NCBI GenBank assembly: GCA_017622845.1
Contig: JAGAQJ010000050.1
Location: 62,001 to 126,000 of the forward strand
Source: Lachnospiraceae bacterium
GTDB lineage: Bacteria > Bacillota > Clostridia > Lachnospirales > Lachnospiraceae
Direction of reading: 5' to 3'
Length of the DNA: 64,000 nt
A model generated the notes under the pieces. The model saw nothing but the letters and a program-made list of their open reading frames with translations, was not told the origin of the DNA and did no database searches. Each line of letters begins with the position of its first letter. The stretch's first letter is position 1. This document shows, one piece after another, positions 12,757 to 52,100 of the stretch. The position numbers and the translations under genes are program-made.

Positions 12757-13330
12757 GTAACAGGACAGCCTTATGGATTATTTTAGCCAGGACGAAGGAC
12801 AGCAGTCCTATTCCGGTACAGGCAATTGGACTCCAAATGCGAATTTTCTAATGGGTGATGTCAAAGTCTTAAAATGCGTCCGCGACCGGACTCTACGCGC
12901 CGTCCATGGATGCGTTTCGTCCTAAATCCGCGTCCGTGCGGATTTTCGCTGATGTATCAAATCACCCATAAGAAAATGTCAGCATTCTCCGCCAGCCTGT
13001 ACCGGCATAGGACTGCCGCCCTTCTGTGTACTGGCAACTGTTCCATTTTATGGTTTCACTGAACAGAAAACGGCAGATAGTATCCTGCAGGCTGCCCGGT
13101 GGAGAATGATGATATTTCCTTATACGATGTTAGATATCCAGGAGCAAATTTGCATGGACGCAAATTTAGGCGAGACGAAGGCATGGATGCCGACTCGAGC
13201 CGGCTCCGTCCTCATTAGAAAGCCTTGATTCATCGTATTAGGAAATTCCCATTCGAAATCAATGGCAGCCGGAGGGATACTATTTGCTGTTTTCGTCCGG
13301 ATAAAAATAAATAAAAGGCTGAACTGTTAC
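12757..13330. repeat. R1 long hairpin repeat, copy 1 (with nested element)
   Basis: It is bounded by GTAACAGGACAGCC (12757) and GGCTGAACTGTTAC (13317-13330). Most of its length is a long imperfect inverted repeat: GCAGATAGTATCC...GGCTGCC pairs with GGCAGCC...GGATACTATTTGC, and GGTGATATTTCC-TTATACGATG pairs with CATCGTATTAGGAAATTCCC. The apex (13145-13216) holds two small hairpins, AAATTTGC/GCAAATTT and GACGAAG/CTCCGTC around GGCATGGATGCC. No open reading frame is conserved between copies. It is longer than the other copies because of a 193-bp insert at 12813-13005. Confidence 0.85.
12813..13005. repeat. Nested, inverted, diverged R1-like element inside copy 1
   Basis: Its ends are CCGGTACAGGC and GCCTGTACCGG. 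It contains its own inverted repeat (TTTTCTAATGGGTGAT against ATCACCCATAAGAAAA). Read on the minus strand, 12872-12945 aligns with the apex of the surrounding copy, but the small stem is AAATCCGC/GCGGATTT instead of AAATTTGC/GCAAATTT: two base pairs changed on both sides. Confidence 0.75.
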
Positions 13331-24495: not shown

Positions 24496-24744
24496 ATGTT
24501 CCCCGCCTTTCCAATCAAATGAAACATTATGGCGGGCAGAAGCTGCTTCTTTGATATCGTGGGAATTGCAGCGTGTGAAACGGTAAAAGAAAAACACCCA
24601 CGTATCAGTATTAGCAACTACTGTCCCGCGGATGTTGTGATATCCACTGCCGCTTGCGCGACCCGGCTCCATGGGCACTGCCCCGGCCTGCTCAGTTTGT
24701 ACTGTAGATTGTATGCAGTGCAAAGAGTGCGTTTAATAACAGAA

Positions 24745-38853: not shown

Positions 38854-39181
38854 GTAACAGTTCAGCCGTATGGATATTTTAATCAGGACGAAGGACTGCC
38901 GTCCTTCTGCGTACTGACAACTGTCCGGCTTTACGGTTTCGATAAACAGAAAACTGCAGATAGTATCCCGTAGAATGCCCCGGTGGAGAATGGTGATATT
39001 TCCTTATACGATGATATGCAAAGCAGGTTGGAGACGGAGGCATGGATGCCGACTCGATCCGGCTCCGTCCTCATTAGAAAGCCTTGCTTCATCGTATTAG
39101 GAAATTCCCATTCAAAACCAATGGCAGCCGGAGGGATACTATCTGCAGTTTTCGTCCGGATAGGAATGCATAAAAGGCTGG
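38854..39181. repeat. R1 long hairpin repeat, copy 2
   Basis: Starts GTAACAGTTCAGCC (38854) and ends in AAAAGGCTGG at 39181, just short of the oleate hydratase stop codon, so the expected right end AACTGTTAC is missing. It shares the arms (GCAGATAGTATCC.../...GGATACTATCTGC, and GGTGATATTTCC-TTATACGATGA/TTCATCGTATTAGG) and the apex GGAGACGGAGGCATGGATGC with copies 1 and 3. It lacks the small AAATTTGC/GCAAATTT hairpin at the apex. No coding potential shared with the other copies. Confidence 0.87.
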
Positions 39182-47130: not shown

Positions 47131-47473
47131 GTAATCGTTCAGCCTTATGGATTATTTTAGTCGGAACGAAGGGCGGCAACTGTTCCATTTTATGGTTTCA
47201 CTGAACAGAAAACGGCAGCTAGTATCCTGCAGGCTGCCTCGGTGGAGAATGGTGATATTTCCTTATATGATGATTGATACTCAGGAGTAAATTTGCACGG
47301 AAGCAAATTTAGGCGAGACGGAGGCATGGATGCCGACTCGAGCCGGCTCCGTCCTCATTCAAAAACCTTAATTCATCGTATTAGGAAATTCCCATTCGAA
47401 ACTAATGGCAGCCGGAGGGATACTAGCTGCCGTTTTCGTCCGGATAGGAATACATAAAAGGCTGAACCGTTAC
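47131..47473. repeat. R1 long hairpin repeat, copy 3
   Basis: Bounded by GTAATCGTTCAGCC (47131) and GGCTGAACCGTTAC (47460-47473). It shares all three structural parts with copy 1: the end module GAACGAAGGGCGGC, the long arms around GCAGCTAGTATCC and GGATACTAGCTGC, and the apex with AAATTTGC/GCAAATTT and GACGGAGGCATGGATGCC. The right end is followed by an extra end-module fragment (ACTGCCGCCCTTCGTCCCGG) at 47477-47498. It occupies most of a 568-bp gap; the remainder shows only a repeated CATTGTGTCCGCG near 46978 and 47058. Confidence 0.87.
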
Positions 47474-47519: not shown

Positions 47520-48077
47520 TCAGCTGCCTGCATGGATAATCTGCATAATTCCCATATAAATCGCCCATGCAACCTTTTCCTGATAGTCGTCCTGCACAAG
47601 AAGCTCCGCTTCTGTGGGATTGCTCATAAATGCACATTCTATAATCATAATCGGAACAGAGGTTTTTTTCAGCAGATAATAGCTGCTGTTCTCCTTCGCA
47701 GTCCGCTCCTTTTCCGGCTTTAAGGAAGCAATCATGCGCTTCTGCATAATCTCTGCCGCTTCCTTACTTTTTACGGAATCCTTATAATAAAATACCTGAA
47801 CTCCGCTGACCGAGGCATCCGGATAACTGTTTTGATGGATGCTTACTGCCAGCATCGGTTTTGCCTCTTCTATAATAGAAAGACGGTTTTTCATATCGCG
47901 CACCTTTTTGTTGGAATCACTTTCCTCATACAGCCCGTTATCGTCCGTTCTCGTCATAACCACATTGATGCCGTTTTCCCTAAGATTTCTCTCGAGCTTT
48001 AGCGCAATCGCCAGATTAATATCCTTTTCAAGCGCATTGTTTACTCCTACTTTTCCCGGATCAATGCCGCCATGTCC
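47520..48077 (-). pseudogene. cwlD: CwlD-type N-acetylmuramoyl-L-alanine amidase, C-terminal part (interrupted)
   Basis: Amidase_3 catalytic part, from GHGGIDPGKVGVNNALEKD through MTRTDDNGLYEESDSNKKV, SIHQNSYPDASVSGVQVFYY and KKTSVPIMIIECAFMSNPTE. Zinc ligands (His in SIHQNS, Glu in IECAF) are present. The N-terminal membrane segment and first strand (IVVDAGHG) lie 3.8 kb away at 51846-52021 on the same strand. Removing 3,776 bp between the CCATGTCC cores at 48070 and 51846 gives one in-frame gene of 241 codons; CwlD of B. subtilis has 237. CwlD makes muramic-lactam in spore cortex; the assignment to CwlD rather than another amidase is by length, membrane anchor and sequence style. Confidence 0.88.
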
Positions 48078-48102
48078 AAAGCATGATATCAGACCAAAAA
48101 AG
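48070..48102 (-). other. attachment site, element B outer end / cwlD C-terminal junction
   Basis: Core CCATGTCC at 48070-48077. On the element side, after exactly 12 nt, is CAGACCAAAAAAG (48090-48102). On the host side the sequence is the cwlD codons for G-I-D-P-G. The CAGACC arm at 12 nt is the mirror of the arm at the other outer end (51821-51833). Confidence 0.85.
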
Positions 48103-48181
48103 GAAAAACTAAGATTGCGTACACTGTTTTCGTGGTCGGAGACATCTCCAAGTCCAACTCACCGCAACCAAAATTCAGGCG

Positions 48182-48215
48182 AATAACAGACTGGTATACT
48201 CTCTGGTCTGTTATT
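48182..48215. other. Hairpin AATAACAGAC/GTCTGTTATT in element B
   Basis: A 10-bp stem with a 14-nt loop, followed on the plus strand by TCATAATC. No gene ends here, so it is probably not a simple terminator. It may insulate the cassette from cwlD transcription. Confidence 0.45.
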
Positions 48216-48268
48216 TCATAATCTCTGTACCTACATATTAATTAAATATACTCTTCACAAAAATGGTT

Positions 48269-48322
48269 GTAACAGTTTAGCTTTCATGGTACGAAGGATA
48301 TCCTTCTGCGTATTAAATATTC
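48269..48322. repeat. R1 end-module fragment in element B
   Basis: GTAACAGTTTAGC (48269) is followed by ATGGTACGAAGGATATCCTTC and TGCGTATT. This follows the order of the R1 left-end module (GTAACAGTTCAGCC, GGACGAAGG hairpin, CCTTCTGCGTACT) with a shorter hairpin. Confidence 0.55.
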
Positions 48323-48428
48323 CAATATTAACATGCAATTATTGTAACTCCTAACATTTCAATAAAAATATATCTTTCTTTCCTTACGTGTGTTATAGTA
48401 AATGTAATACATCAGAATTGGAGGACAT

Positions 48429-49490
48429 ATGATGAGACGATTGTTTAGAAACATTCTTTTGGCAGCAGTAGTTTTCTTTCCTATTTTTATGACAAATCCG
48501 CTTTCGGCTATGGCAGCGCCGGTTGTCTACCCAGATGGGACGATTTTCGATGCGGTTTACTATGAAGCCAATAACCCGGATGTAGTGGCTGTGGTAGGCA
48601 GCAGTGCACAGGCACTTTACCAGCACTACATCTTATACGGACGGATTGAGGGACGCCTGCCTTATGATCCTAAGCTGGATGCAGATGCGCTTTTGCAACA
48701 GACGATGGAGAATGCAACGCTAAGTCAGACACTTCGCGCAACGGATACAACCATCGAAAATCTTCGCACGGCTTTGCCCGGAACCTTTGTGACATATGGA
48801 GTCTATGAACAGGATAACGTGGCAGAGAACGGCATGGAACCTATAGAGTGGCGAGTGCTTGAGAATACCGGGGACAGCGTACTTTTGATGAGCCGTTATG
48901 TGCTTGATGGCGTTCCTTACTCGAATGCGTATGATACTTACGCTTATAATCCCTACGATGTGACATGGGAGACGTGTAATCTGCGGAACTGGCTCAATAC
49001 GACATTTTATACCACCGCATTTGATACGGATGAGCAGAGCAGAATCCTGACGGTTAAGAACAGCAATGCGCCAAACTTCAGTCTTAGCGCAAAGAAAATG
49101 ATGTATGGAAACGATACGTTTGATAAAGTGTTTATATTAAGTGTTGATGAGGTGGCGAGATATTTTCCGCGTGATTCGGTTTATCTGAACAATGATGGAC
49201 AACCAATTTACTATGCCTCCGCACTCAGGATGAAGGCAACCCCTTATGCGCTTAAACATGGTGCAAGCGAGTGGACTATTAAGGATGCTAAAGCATGTGA
49301 AGGGTATCACGGAGGTTTTTACTCCATCAGATATGATGTAGTAGGCTATGCGCAAAAGATTGCATTGCGAACTCTGTGTGGTAAAAATACGACAGTTTAT
49401 ACTATTGGTGCAGATGGAACAAGCTATGGAGTGCGCATCGTTACCTACGATATGGGAGAATGCCCGGTAATATGGGTTAGTACGAAATAA
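48429..49490 (+). CDS. Secreted DUF6273-type protein carried by element B
   Basis: A 353-residue exported protein. A signal peptide (about 1-29) ends at SAMAAP. Residues about 33-78 (GTIFDAVYYEANNPDVVAVV...YGRIEGRLPY) match a short motif common in surface proteins of Lachnospiraceae. The rest is DUF6273-like: IEWRVLENTGDSVLLMSRYVLDG, NLRNWLNTTFYTTAFDTDEQSRIL, DKVFILSVDEV and VRIVTYDMGECPVIWVS. The start follows GGAGG. It is transcribed against cwlD and is the only cargo gene of the cassette. Function is unknown; cell-surface interaction is a reasonable guess. Confidence 0.85.
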   Translation: MMRRLFRNILLAAVVFFPIFMTNPLSAMAAPVVYPDGTIFDAVYYEANNPDVVAVVGSSAQALYQHYILYGRIEGRLPYDPKLDADALLQQTMENATLSQTLRATDTTIENLRTALPGTFVTYGVYEQDNVAENGMEPIEWRVLENTGDSVLLMSRYVLDGVPYSNAYDTYAYNPYDVTWETCNLRNWLNTTFYTTAFDTDEQSRILTVKNSNAPNFSLSAKKMMYGNDTFDKVFILSVDEVARYFPRDSVYLNNDGQPIYYASALRMKATPYALKHGASEWTIKDAKACEGYHGGFYSIRYDVVGYAQKIALRTLCGKNTTVYTIGADGTSYGVRIVTYDMGECPVIWVSTK

Positions 49491-49499
49491 AGCAATATT

Positions 49500-49521
49500 G
49501 GAGACTGTTTAAACAGTCTCC
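49500..49521. other. 22-bp perfect palindrome after the DUF6273 gene
   Basis: GGAGACTGTTT and its exact complement AAACAGTCTCC abut at 49500-49521, 9 bp after the stop codon. There is no T-tract, so it is a weak terminator candidate or a protein-binding site. Confidence 0.5.
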
Positions 49522-49570
49522 ATAACGCCTATACTAATCCCGATGGCATGTAGGTAAAAATCGTTTTATT

Positions 49571-49625
49571 CGGTCTGTTCAAAGTCCCGCCATGTCCAAG
49601 ACACGATATCCGGCAAAAAAAATGT
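49571..49625 (-). other. Internal attachment site between elements B and A
   Basis: Core CCATGTCC at 49590-49597. One arm CGGTCTG (49571-49577) and the other CCGGCAAAAAAAA (49610-49622) each lie exactly 12 nt from the core, the same geometry as the outer sites. This marks the junction of two tandem insertions. Confidence 0.8.
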
Positions 49626-51380
49626 TTAAATACTCTTGATTTCCTTTACAAACAGATGGTCAAACTCACCACTGAATTTATACATAATCTCGAGATGTTT
49701 ATCCTCATACACATAAATTTTGTCGATGAGCCGCACCACCATATCTCTGTCTAATTCCTCAAGCTGTCCCTTCGACAACAACAGCTTTACCCATTCATTT
49801 TCAAGCACTGCTTTTGGTGCGGCAAGTTTCTCTTTTAGTGCCGAGATTTCATTCTCATAGCAGCGGATAGCGCTTTCGCAGTCCTCCCTTGCTTCTTTAT
49901 ACTCAGCATCTGTGAGAACCCCGTCCAGCAGTTTATCCCTTGCTGTCTTTAGGCGGTTTTGATTGTTCTCTACCCCCCTTTTTCTCATCGCAATTTCCCT
50001 TTGCAGATTGTCCTCATAAGAAGCCCCTTTTGATGTGGATTTTTGTTGTATTATATGTCTTACGGTTTCTTTTAAATTCTGAAGCTGTCGGATAATCACA
50101 TTTAAGTCATCCAGCACAAGCTTTCGTATCATTTTGTCACTAATATAATGGCTGGTGCAGCTTGGCATATTTTTTTGCTCTTCTTCACTTAGTCTGCTCT
50201 TATTTCTGCTAAAATCACGAAAAGTGCCACAATTATAGTACAGATATCTGTGACGCTTCCCACATTTGGCATTATAATTATCCCATTTTTTACGCATTGC
50301 ATGTCTGCAATCACCACATTTCAAAATGCCTTTAAAAATCGTGATTTCGTCAGGCTTGGTCGTATCACGCCTGATATTTGACATCATGGACTGTGCAATC
50401 TCCCAGTCCTCCTTTGATACAATCGCCTCGTGTGTTCCCTCCACACGAATCCAGTCTTCTTTTGGCATTTGTGTTGTATGTTTATCCAGCAGACGTTTGT
50501 GAACTGTCTTTCCCTGAACCAAAGTGCCTGTATACACTTCATTCATCAATATCTGTTTCACGGAATCACAAGTCCAATGCACCTCGTTATCAGAAATTTT
50601 TTTCGAGCAGATATAGTTGGATTGCTGTATTTTTTTGTAGACAGCCCGGTTGACGATACCCCGTCTTGTTAAATCCAATGCGATTTCTTTTTGGGAAACA
50701 CCAGCTAAATACTGTCTGAAAATATCTCTCACTACATCTGCAGCGTATTCGTCAATTACCAAATGGTACTTATCCTCAGGGTCTTTCCGATAGCCATAGG
50801 GCACAAATGCTCCAACGTACTGACCTTTCTTCTGCATCGAGTGCATCCCCATCAACACGTTTTTGTGCTGGTCTTCGGAATATTTGCGGTTCATGATTAA
50901 AATCATCTTTGTCAGAATATCCAGCTCCTGATACAGGCTGTCATAATGGTCACCAATGGCAATGAATCTGACTTGTTTCCCAGACTGCTCAAATTCATTT
51001 TCCATGTAATTTTGCATTTTTGTATCGTAACGGCCCAATCTTGACAGATTTTTCACAATAATGCAATCCACCAGTCCGGTCTTCACATCACGCATCATTT
51101 CCTGAAAAGCTTTGCGTTCAAAGGTCATGCCCGTAAAATCATCATCCGAATATTCCTTGTATATTTTCATCGGGCAGGTATCACTTCGGGAACTGTTTTG
51201 ATAATCTATGTACTCTTTGATGTTTGCAATCTGGTTAATTAAACTGCGGCTCATATCCTCCTTACTGAGTTTATCTCTGTCTTCATCGGAAAGCCTGACA
51301 TAAACAGCAGTGCTCCACGATTGATTGTCAATGGTATTGTGCGGTGTAAACCGTTCTTTCCCTTCAAACATATCAAACAT
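49626..51380 (-). CDS. Large serine recombinase (site-specific integrase/excisionase)
   Basis: Catalyses the strand exchange that would insert or remove the elements in cwlD. It has 584 residues. The resolvase N-terminal domain has YVRLSDED with catalytic Ser at about residue 31, and IVKNLSRLGRYDTKM with the supporting arginine. The recombinase domain (about 190-290) includes GAFVPYGYRKDP. The zinc ribbon has LKCGDCRHAM and a following C...C pair near YYNCGTF and MPSCTSHYI. A C-terminal coiled coil (about 430-540) precedes LVVRLIDKIYVYEDKHLEI-like strands, as in TnpX/Tn4451-type enzymes. The start at 51380 has AGAGGAGG 7 nt upstream; the upstream ATG at 51398 does not. Confidence 0.95.
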   Translation of the reverse strand: MFDMFEGKERFTPHNTIDNQSWSTAVYVRLSDEDRDKLSKEDMSRSLINQIANIKEYIDYQNSSRSDTCPMKIYKEYSDDDFTGMTFERKAFQEMMRDVKTGLVDCIIVKNLSRLGRYDTKMQNYMENEFEQSGKQVRFIAIGDHYDSLYQELDILTKMILIMNRKYSEDQHKNVLMGMHSMQKKGQYVGAFVPYGYRKDPEDKYHLVIDEYAADVVRDIFRQYLAGVSQKEIALDLTRRGIVNRAVYKKIQQSNYICSKKISDNEVHWTCDSVKQILMNEVYTGTLVQGKTVHKRLLDKHTTQMPKEDWIRVEGTHEAIVSKEDWEIAQSMMSNIRRDTTKPDEITIFKGILKCGDCRHAMRKKWDNYNAKCGKRHRYLYYNCGTFRDFSRNKSRLSEEEQKNMPSCTSHYISDKMIRKLVLDDLNVIIRQLQNLKETVRHIIQQKSTSKGASYEDNLQREIAMRKRGVENNQNRLKTARDKLLDGVLTDAEYKEAREDCESAIRCYENEISALKEKLAAPKAVLENEWVKLLLSKGQLEELDRDMVVRLIDKIYVYEDKHLEIMYKFSGEFDHLFVKEIKSI

Positions 51381-51519
51381 GTTTTGCCTCCTCTGCATTC
51401 ATATGTGACTTTACAATCATTTTCACGGCATCTTCGCAGGAAAACTGCCCTAAATAAGTTCGTGTTACTTTCCAAGTACGGTCATCTGATGCTTTTTGTG
51501 TGTTCCTTGTATTTTCCAA
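51373..51519 (-). CDS. Possible small protein translationally coupled to the recombinase
   Basis: An open minus-strand frame, readable from about 51540, encodes WKVTRTYLGQFSCEDAVKM then IVKSHMNAEEAKHV and stops at TGA 51375-51373, overlapping the recombinase ATG by 8 nt. The overlap and helix-like composition suggest a real small protein (about 40-48 residues), such as a directionality factor. The start is uncertain: no ATG, TTG at 51519 possible, no clear ribosome site. It may instead be the remnant tail of a longer gene. Confidence 0.35.
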   Translation of the reverse strand: MENTRNTQKASDDRTWKVTRTYLGQFSCEDAVKMIVKSHMNAEEAKHV

Positions 51520-51584
51520 ATCGTCACACTCATTCTGCTCTTATAACAGGTTATGCGGAAAAGTGTGAAGTAATGATTTTGTAG

Positions 51585-51614
51585 ACAAAAGGCTGAGCAA
51601 AAACGCTCAGCCTT
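51585..51614 (-). terminator. Terminator between cwlD N-terminus and the recombinase
   Basis: AAGGCTGAGC (51589-51598) and GCTCAGCCTT (51605-51614) form a 10-bp stem with a 6-nt loop; on the minus strand TTTTGTC follows. It would stop cwlD transcription running into element A. Confidence 0.7.
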
Positions 51615-51799
51615 CTCATTGAGTTCTTTTTCCGACATTGCTTTCGTAGTCGACCCCCTACATTCAACACATGGTTGACAGTATCTATCTGATAAATCAA
51701 GCGTCACCTTATGCAGATTACCTGAGGCAGCACCACCAAAGCCAGACACCAAAACATTCTTTCGTACAAGCTCCCACCCAGCTTTGATACACGGATACT

Positions 51800-52021
51800 T
51801 CATCGACTGTCCGGACCAGACTTTTTCGGTCTGTCATCTGTCTTTCCATGTCCGGCATCAACCACGATTGTTATTTCTTCGGTGTTCCTCTGAAATGCCT
51901 TTCTTGCATGTTCCTCTATGGTACTCACAAACTGTGCTGATTCCCTCGCCGCCACGATCATCGCCAGAACCAGCAATAGTGTCAGGATTTTTGTTGTATT
52001 TTTACTGCGATTTGCGTTCAT
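51800..52021 (-). pseudogene. cwlD: CwlD-type amidase, N-terminal part (interrupted)
   Basis: Encodes a basic N-terminus, a membrane helix (ILTLLLVLAMIVAA, about 12-25) and TEEITIVVDAGHG, the first strand of an Amidase_3 domain. After the GGACATGG core (51853-51846) the native frame is lost: the reading frame continues 15 codons into element A (K-T-D-D-R-P-K-K-S-G-P-D-S-R) and stops. In the excised form it would join 48069 and read GHGGIDPGKVGV. The start at 52021 follows a weak AGGT ribosome site. Confidence 0.88.
51821..51853 (-). other. attachment site, element A outer end / cwlD N-terminal junction
   Basis: Core CCATGTCC at 51846-51853, with the element-side arm CTTTTTCGGTCTG at 51821-51833, 12 nt from the core. 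Host side is the cwlD sequence for V-V-D-A-G. Rejoined host flanks give ATGCCG-N7-CGGCAT, a dyad centred in the core, as expected for an attB. Confidence 0.85.
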
Positions 52022-52052: not shown

Positions 52053-52058
52053 ATTATA
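52053..52058 (-). promoter_or_regulatory. Candidate -10 of cwlD
   Basis: The minus strand reads CATATAATATA 32 bp upstream of the cwlD start. TATAAT suits the vegetative sigma factor, while CATATAAT also resembles -10 elements of sporulation sigma factors. No convincing -35 is visible for either. Confidence 0.35.
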
Positions 52059-52100
52059 TGAGAAGCAGCCGCTTTTCAGCACATTTTGACACCTGCAATT

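Follow-up and report, generated by a model that had tools for sequence, protein, structure and literature searches.

A CwlD-type amidase gene split at its zinc-site codons by a small serine-recombinase element in a Lachnospiraceae genome, a predicted intervening element of sporulation

Several genes of spore-forming bacteria are known to be split by intervening elements, namely sigK, spsM, spoVFB, spoVR, gerE, kamA and yabG (PMC5595907, PMC4191935, PMC5025042, PMC10747680, PMC6957869), and excision of such elements during sporulation has precedents (PMC5595907, PMC4191935, PMC5025042, PMC10747680). Here we describe a CwlD-type amidase gene (cwlD) that is interrupted by a 3.8-kb insert carrying a large serine recombinase, in a stretch of 64,000 nucleotides from a Lachnospiraceae bacterium (contig JAGAQJ010000050.1, positions 62,001 to 126,000; hereafter the window). 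The arrangement resembles the skin element of B. subtilis and C. difficile, in which a large serine recombinase splits sigK and excision restores the frame. In C. difficile, excision of skin is controlled by a small directionality factor (PMC5025042), and the cwlD element has a small frame that is a candidate for such a role. The two differ in that sigK encodes a sigma factor whereas cwlD encodes an enzyme, and in that the cwlD insert is small, with no phage genes found, and its excision is predicted.

The gin element in gerE of B. cereus ATCC10987 is likewise of non-phage type, with serine recombinases inside a small sporulation gene, and its three recombinases recall a second cwlD cut point in two related genomes (G397 and G414, see below); it differs in its size (28.6 kb, 31 genes), its demonstrated excision and its target gene (PMC5595907). 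SPbeta in spsM, phi3T in kamA, vfbin in spoVFB, vrin in spoVR and yin in yabG also lie inside sporulation genes and several were shown to be excised, but they are described as prophages or prophage-like and none lies in an amidase gene (PMC4191935, PMC10747680, PMC6957869). Among the titles and abstract openings found in a literature search that covered few subscription papers or bioRxiv preprints, none names cwlD or another amidase gene as the target of an intervening element. The name cwlD is absent from PMC5595907, PMC4191935, PMC5025042 and PMC10747680, and passages of PMC3789822 and PMC3416734, which also name skin or sigK, treat it as an ordinary gene. What is new here is the target, an amidase gene met by a recombinase family at its DAGHGG codons; the literature coverage falls short of proof of novelty.

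The cwlD gene lies on the minus strand of the window in two parts, with the break at the DAG-HGG codons of the zinc site (Table 1). The sequence-only reading of the window had proposed an amidase gene split at this point and restorable by excision, and at the sequence level both claims hold: the N-half ends, and the C-half restarts, at a copy of the same core, CCATGTCC, and deletion of the 3,776 bp between the outer cores gives a single frame of 242 codons (stop counted) without internal stop and with DAGHGGIDPGKVG intact again. The C-half matches Amidase_3 (108 bits), and its top NCBIfam model is TIGR02883 spore_cwlD (138 bits, model span 47-188 of 189). The CwlD-type identity proposed earlier thus agrees with the best model, though the curated cut-off of 221.55 bits is reached neither by the C-half nor by the genomic frame (193.9 bits); it is likewise missed by all 38 genomes of the genus (highest 217.9 bits). 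The nearest solved chain to an intact relative with 93% protein identity (P0001) is 7rag, annotated as a 'germination-specific' amidase, which we take to be C. difficile CwlD. H58, E73 and E203 of the joined protein align with the H, the E and the LIEC glutamate of 7rag. The zinc ligands of C. difficile CwlD are His49 and Glu65 and its catalytic residue is Glu199 (PMC8496864), and the cut therefore falls at the codon of a predicted zinc-ligand histidine. Judged by the top model, the structure match and the alignment of zinc and catalytic residues, the gene is of the CwlD type. Loss of CwlD or PdaA causes severe germination defects (PMC8496864).

Upstream of the N-half lies CATATAAT, and a CATA-type motif occurs at -37 to -41 from the cwlD start in 19 of 26 distinct rows of the genus, the window among them. 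This CATATAAT/CATA motif is like the -10 boxes of sporulation genes such as spoIIID tabulated in PMC3416734, where the core sporulation gene list gives the regulators of cwlD as 'E, G'. In C. difficile, cwlD is controlled by the mother-cell factor sigma-E (PMC3789822). The genome of the window (G000), a 3.60-Mb draft, has a spoIVA match of 614.6 bits. As it consists of 76 contigs, and as an apparent cwlD split in another genome of the genus (G401) was dismissed as an N-filled assembly gap, an assembly artefact or contaminant contig join has to be considered. Since a single 182-kb contig contains both halves and other assemblies repeat the junction structure, we regard such an artefact as barely conceivable.

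The core is found at three places, so that the insert consists of two tandem cassettes. The tandem arrangement noticed earlier stands, by virtue of the third core at 49590; one cassette carries the serine recombinase and the other a DUF6273 gene. The 8-mer core has five copies on the plus strand of the window, three of them at the insert, and none on the minus strand, and by itself is weak evidence for attachment sites. Similarity extends beyond the core, with 83% identity over 35 nt between the right and middle sites and 72% over 32 nt between the middle and left sites, and the arms recur in other species, with GGTCTG before the core and CAGACC after it in most. No internal site like the middle one was found in the other loci (15 loci scanned with arm patterns), and the tandem arrangement thus appears particular to the window.

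Table 1 Features of the split cwlD locus in the window
Feature	Position	Strand	Description
cwlD N-half	51846..52021	-	ATG at 52021; hydrophobic segment (by eye); runs to DAG-H of DAGHGG
cwlD C-half	47520..48077	-	HGG to stop; 184 codons counted from H
CATATAAT	52053..52060	-	39 nt upstream of cwlD ATG
Left attachment site, at N-half	51821..51853	-	core 51846-51853; outer arm CAGACC (gene strand) 51828-51833
Middle site	49566..49621	-	core 49590-49597, arms on both sides; cassette boundary
Right attachment site, at C-half	48070..48101	-	core 48070-48077; arm GGTCTG (gene strand) 48090-48095
Recombinase cassette	49598..51845		middle-to-left cores
Cargo cassette	48078..49589		right-to-middle cores
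Large serine recombinase, TnpX-like	49626..51398	-	Resolvase, Recombinase and zinc-ribbon domains; open frame
Small open frame	51373..51540	-	55 codons; no ATG at start; overlaps recombinase start
Cargo gene, DUF6273 protein	48429..49490	+	in recombinase-free cassette; only sizeable gene there

TnpX is the recombinase of Tn4451-type transposons, and it is the best solved structure for the window's recombinase by sequence (2mhc, E 6e-13), a chain that comprises the catalytic domain only. Staphylococcal cassette chromosome (SCC) elements with CcrB are known as tandem cassettes at one attachment site, some without a recombinase. The cwlD insert resembles them in its tandem cassettes, one of which is recombinase-free, but the target differs and the recombinase scores 109.7 bits with the CcrB model against a cut-off of 900. 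In PHROGs, it matches integrase and invertase families. Its start is more likely at 51380 than at 51398, judging from an AGGAGG followed by ATG; the database entry has 584 amino acids. The small frame overlapping its start is kept upstream of the recombinases of relatives, with W, R, Y, F, S and H invariant in 11 aligned sequences; loci L053, L059 and L061 have the same frame with the W substituted (DNA read by eye). It gave no Pfam match over the cut-off, and its assignment to a known family was unsupported. We consider this frame a candidate directionality factor, and the C. difficile factor CD1234, with 53 amino acids (PMC10747680), is of similar size.

Relatives of the recombinase stand beside identically cut amidase genes in many other genomes. 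Among 397 genomes of the family, with up to three candidates scored per genome, only two others had a recombinase at E 1e-100 or better (G111 and G274; 62% and 57% identity), each of them next to a cwlD C-half that is cut at HGG; the contig of G111 also carries the N-half, whereas that of G274 does not. A wider scan with one genome per species yielded 94 relatives; 80 loci were retained, among them the two from the family. Where the recombinase was at least 54% identical, a cwlD C-half beginning at HGG lay downstream on the same strand at 12 of 14 loci; of the other two, the contig of L055 ends 34 bp past the recombinase and L062 is cut inside its recombinase. In total, an amidase gene cut at the DAGHGG motif abuts the recombinase at 36 of the 80 loci, and L081 is a potential 37th by way of a second recombinase. 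These include distant recombinases (27-35%) from Oscillospiraceae, Bacilli and others, whose neighbouring amidase genes are interrupted at this motif too; the amidase of L078, the only distant one scanned, has Amidase_3 and LysM domains. Both halves lie on one contig, 6-11 kb apart, at L075, L078, L079, L087, L092, L093, L094, L101, L103 and L106 (the N-half search pattern covered DAG, DPG and DSG forms), and at L066 and L102 it is the N-half that lies next to the recombinase, in opposite orientation.

Other targets were found among the remaining loci. A manganese-catalase (CotJC-like) gene is cut at one motif in L090 (11711-12154), L110 (7515-7940) and L122 (11613-12068), assigned by Pfam for L110 and by eye for the others; cotJC is among the core sporulation genes (PMC3416734). 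An ATP-binding cassette (ABC) transporter ATPase gene is cut at its LSGGMRQRV signature, with the C-side in L083, L116 and L119 and the N-side in L097, L113 and L114 (by eye). Collagen-like GPTG genes follow the recombinases in L123-L126 (by eye; Pfam Collagen in L124). In a tree of the recombinases, the target gene follows the recombinase clade, the amidase label requiring 3 changes against 10.9 when shuffled, a difference to which near-copies contribute. The tree was built by a quick method and has many unsure branches; 32 rows have no target label, G032 (7 amino acids) was left out, and the row of L081 is not the recombinase adjoining its amidase.

The genus and family hold both intact and split genes. 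In accordance with the earlier suggestion to look for relatives with an intact gene, a spore_cwlD search gave a full-length match within a single open frame in 26 of 38 genomes of the genus; that these intact genes occupy the same chromosomal place was judged by eye for a few loci. Among the best 120 database matches, the closest intact allele is the 93% identical P0001. The other twelve comprise the window's split at HGG, three genes split after the catalytic glutamate codon (G397, G402, G414), the gap of G401, two genomes with a longer frame only (G405 and G411, 477-505 amino acids) and five without a match at the threshold (G404, G407, G423, G427, G431). The three splits beside the catalytic glutamate define a second cut point, separate from that at HGG. 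In G397, the lost C-end lies about 66 kb away on the same contig and strand (L044 7757 to L159 1501, G397:C23), and both cwlD junctions carry inverted arms. Because apparently ordinary chromosomal genes lie in this interval, including apparent urease and purF genes (by eye), an island or a rearrangement may be involved. Three recombinases stand beside the N-part in G397 and G414, and one is on the contig in G402; the C-end was not found in G402 and G414 with a one-mismatch pattern.

A family census with spore_cwlD gave a match in 224 of 298 genomes. Among the matches listed, three rows begin at model position 7. In G032, the gene is split by a 1.9-kb insert whose single recombinase is 34% identical, in G176 the split gene runs to a recombinase fragment at the contig end, and in G105 (L134 1264-7866, G105:C60) cwlD is cut at DAGH by 6.6 kb. 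One gene scanned in the G105 insert carries esterase-type domains.

Rejoining of cwlD by excision at spore formation is likely, because related recombinases adjoin identically cut amidase genes at 36 loci. We consider it moderately probable that the insert is an intervening element of the skin and gin kind with a new target, and its recombinase is predicted to excise it when the cell sporulates. In the mechanism that we propose, a small and probably mobile element with a large serine recombinase would interrupt the CwlD-type gene at its DAGHGG codons, and the recombinase, with the small upstream frame as its directionality factor, would act on the att-like sites and remove the insert precisely during sporulation, so that cwlD is rejoined. 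Only the mother cell, whose genome is lost, would excise the insert, while the spore would keep the split gene; CwlD would thus be produced only in a cell with cut DNA. The joined CwlD, together with a PdaA-type deacetylase, would then generate muramic-delta-lactam. In C. difficile, both cwlD and the skin factor CD1234 are under the mother-cell factor sigma-E (PMC3789822), and the mother cell is where excision would have to act. This control of cwlD raises our confidence slightly, and the broken C-half of L094 (below) lowers it slightly.

Several observations weigh against an excision tied to sporulation. At L062, the N-half is absent from the 10 kb upstream. Outside cwlD, the C-half has 93 codons before its stop in L094 and is short in L079 (201 codons), so that not every split amidase looks whole. 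Other recombinase clades target genes without a known sporulation role, such as the ABC ATPase. On scanning, the 160 bp upstream of the recombinases showed no conserved CATA box, and the model of the small frame is a single helix of low confidence (predicted local distance difference test, pLDDT, 64.5). The 6.6-kb insert of G105 gave no recombinase match inside, and the best 120 matches included no intact allele that was identical to that of the window or came from the same species.

Divergence between hosts also bears against it. Among the 12 other hosts of cwlD splits of this recombinase clade (66 pairs), the synonymous divergence of the recombinase is below that of the cwlD C-half in 42 pairs, which include all 22 pairs with a recombinase synonymous divergence (pS) below 0.62, a filter that favours such an outcome; in the other 24 pairs it is equal or higher, with both near saturation. 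As the recombinase is less diverged than cwlD, many elements appear to have reached their hosts after the hosts separated; the rest are undated. Element and host divergence correlate (Mantel r 0.74 over 13 rows), and co-descent was rejected for clear mismatches, the recombinases of L061 and L053 being 88% identical against 59% for the C-halves, and those of L064 and L058 93% against 75%. The ratio of nonsynonymous to synonymous divergence (dN/dS) of the C-half is 0.016-0.15 where computable. Because many elements are late, this low ratio cannot be assigned to the split state and may predate it. Selection on the halves as proof of excision was dropped, since many recombinases moved between hosts.

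Such horizontal spread would suit a selfish mobile element whose attachment site is the DNA encoding DAGHGG and which simply disables cwlD, germination being lost or carried by another amidase such as a fusion protein. Conserved coding motifs are typical integrase targets, and the DAGHGG codons would fit that use; the cut ABC ATPase genes and the broken C-half of L094 point the same way. However, the C-half is open, with 183-190 codons, in all 13 cwlD splits of this clade, the window included. The N-half was found in nine of the 13 (six on the same contig and three on another contig of the genome, by arm sequence), and was not found in the remaining four, the contigs of which end upstream.

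The candidate for the other amidase is a 492-amino-acid fusion in the window's genome (L136 1770-3248, G000:C23), in which an Amidase_3 portion that matches spore_cwlD at 151 bits is joined to a PdaA-like deacetylase portion (84 bits with spore_pdaA); two further separate PdaA-like frames lie under the cut-off. The sequence-only reading had named a second full cwlD as the finding that would make the split copy irrelevant. A spore_cwlD profile search found no second stand-alone cwlD in the genome, its only matches elsewhere being this longer protein and one at 49 bits, but the fusion is a complication: it might do part of the work of CwlD, which counts both against excision in sporulation and for the selfish element. 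On the other side, 11 genomes of the genus have fusion-length frames matching spore_cwlD beside an intact cwlD (compared by length only), and cwlD is therefore not obviously dispensable there. Taken with the open C-halves, this leads us to regard a purely selfish insertion as unlikely.

Excision could also be frequent and unlinked to sporulation, giving a mixed population with and without functional cwlD as a bet on germination. The yin element of yabG is excised at every culture time point (PMC10747680), and close relatives of the window's genome carry intact alleles. No within-strain mixture was seen in the assemblies, which would mask one, and we hold this explanation to be distinctly improbable.

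Beyond this locus, the chances seem about even that programmed DNA rearrangement repeatedly targets spore-peptidoglycan amidases, with small recombinase elements across Bacillota cutting cwlD and related amidase genes at the codon of the zinc ligand and, independently of that, beside the catalytic glutamate. Only the sporulating cell would then have DNA that encodes this enzyme, which can damage the wall and is needed for germination. Should excision be regulated, DNA cutting would control a step on which it depends whether a spore can ever germinate, in many uncultured spore-formers where the complete enzyme would escape gene callers. The loci also yield recombinases whose target sites are defined and conserved, and sister species with intact and split genes are natural replicates for asking whether such elements harm sporulation, regulate it or are tolerated in it.

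The second cassette of the window's insert would be a passenger in the proposed mechanism, mobilised in trans by the adjacent recombinase. Its DUF6273 protein has a hydrophobic N-terminus (by eye) and may be exported, and no match to it was found in the other recombinase loci compared. Neither this cargo nor the small frame matches a PHROGs family, and no phage genes besides the recombinase were found in the insert; a phage origin was unsupported, with a single distant match in viral contigs. Elsewhere in the same genome, three large serine recombinases stand in tandem (L154 7028-12076, G000:C66). The window also contains four matches to the TwoAYGGAY RNA (RF01731), at 12828-12994, 13097-13261, 38981-39120 and 47240-47404, the last of which sits just past the cwlD C-half, and a NiCo riboswitch match at 24619-24705 on the minus strand.

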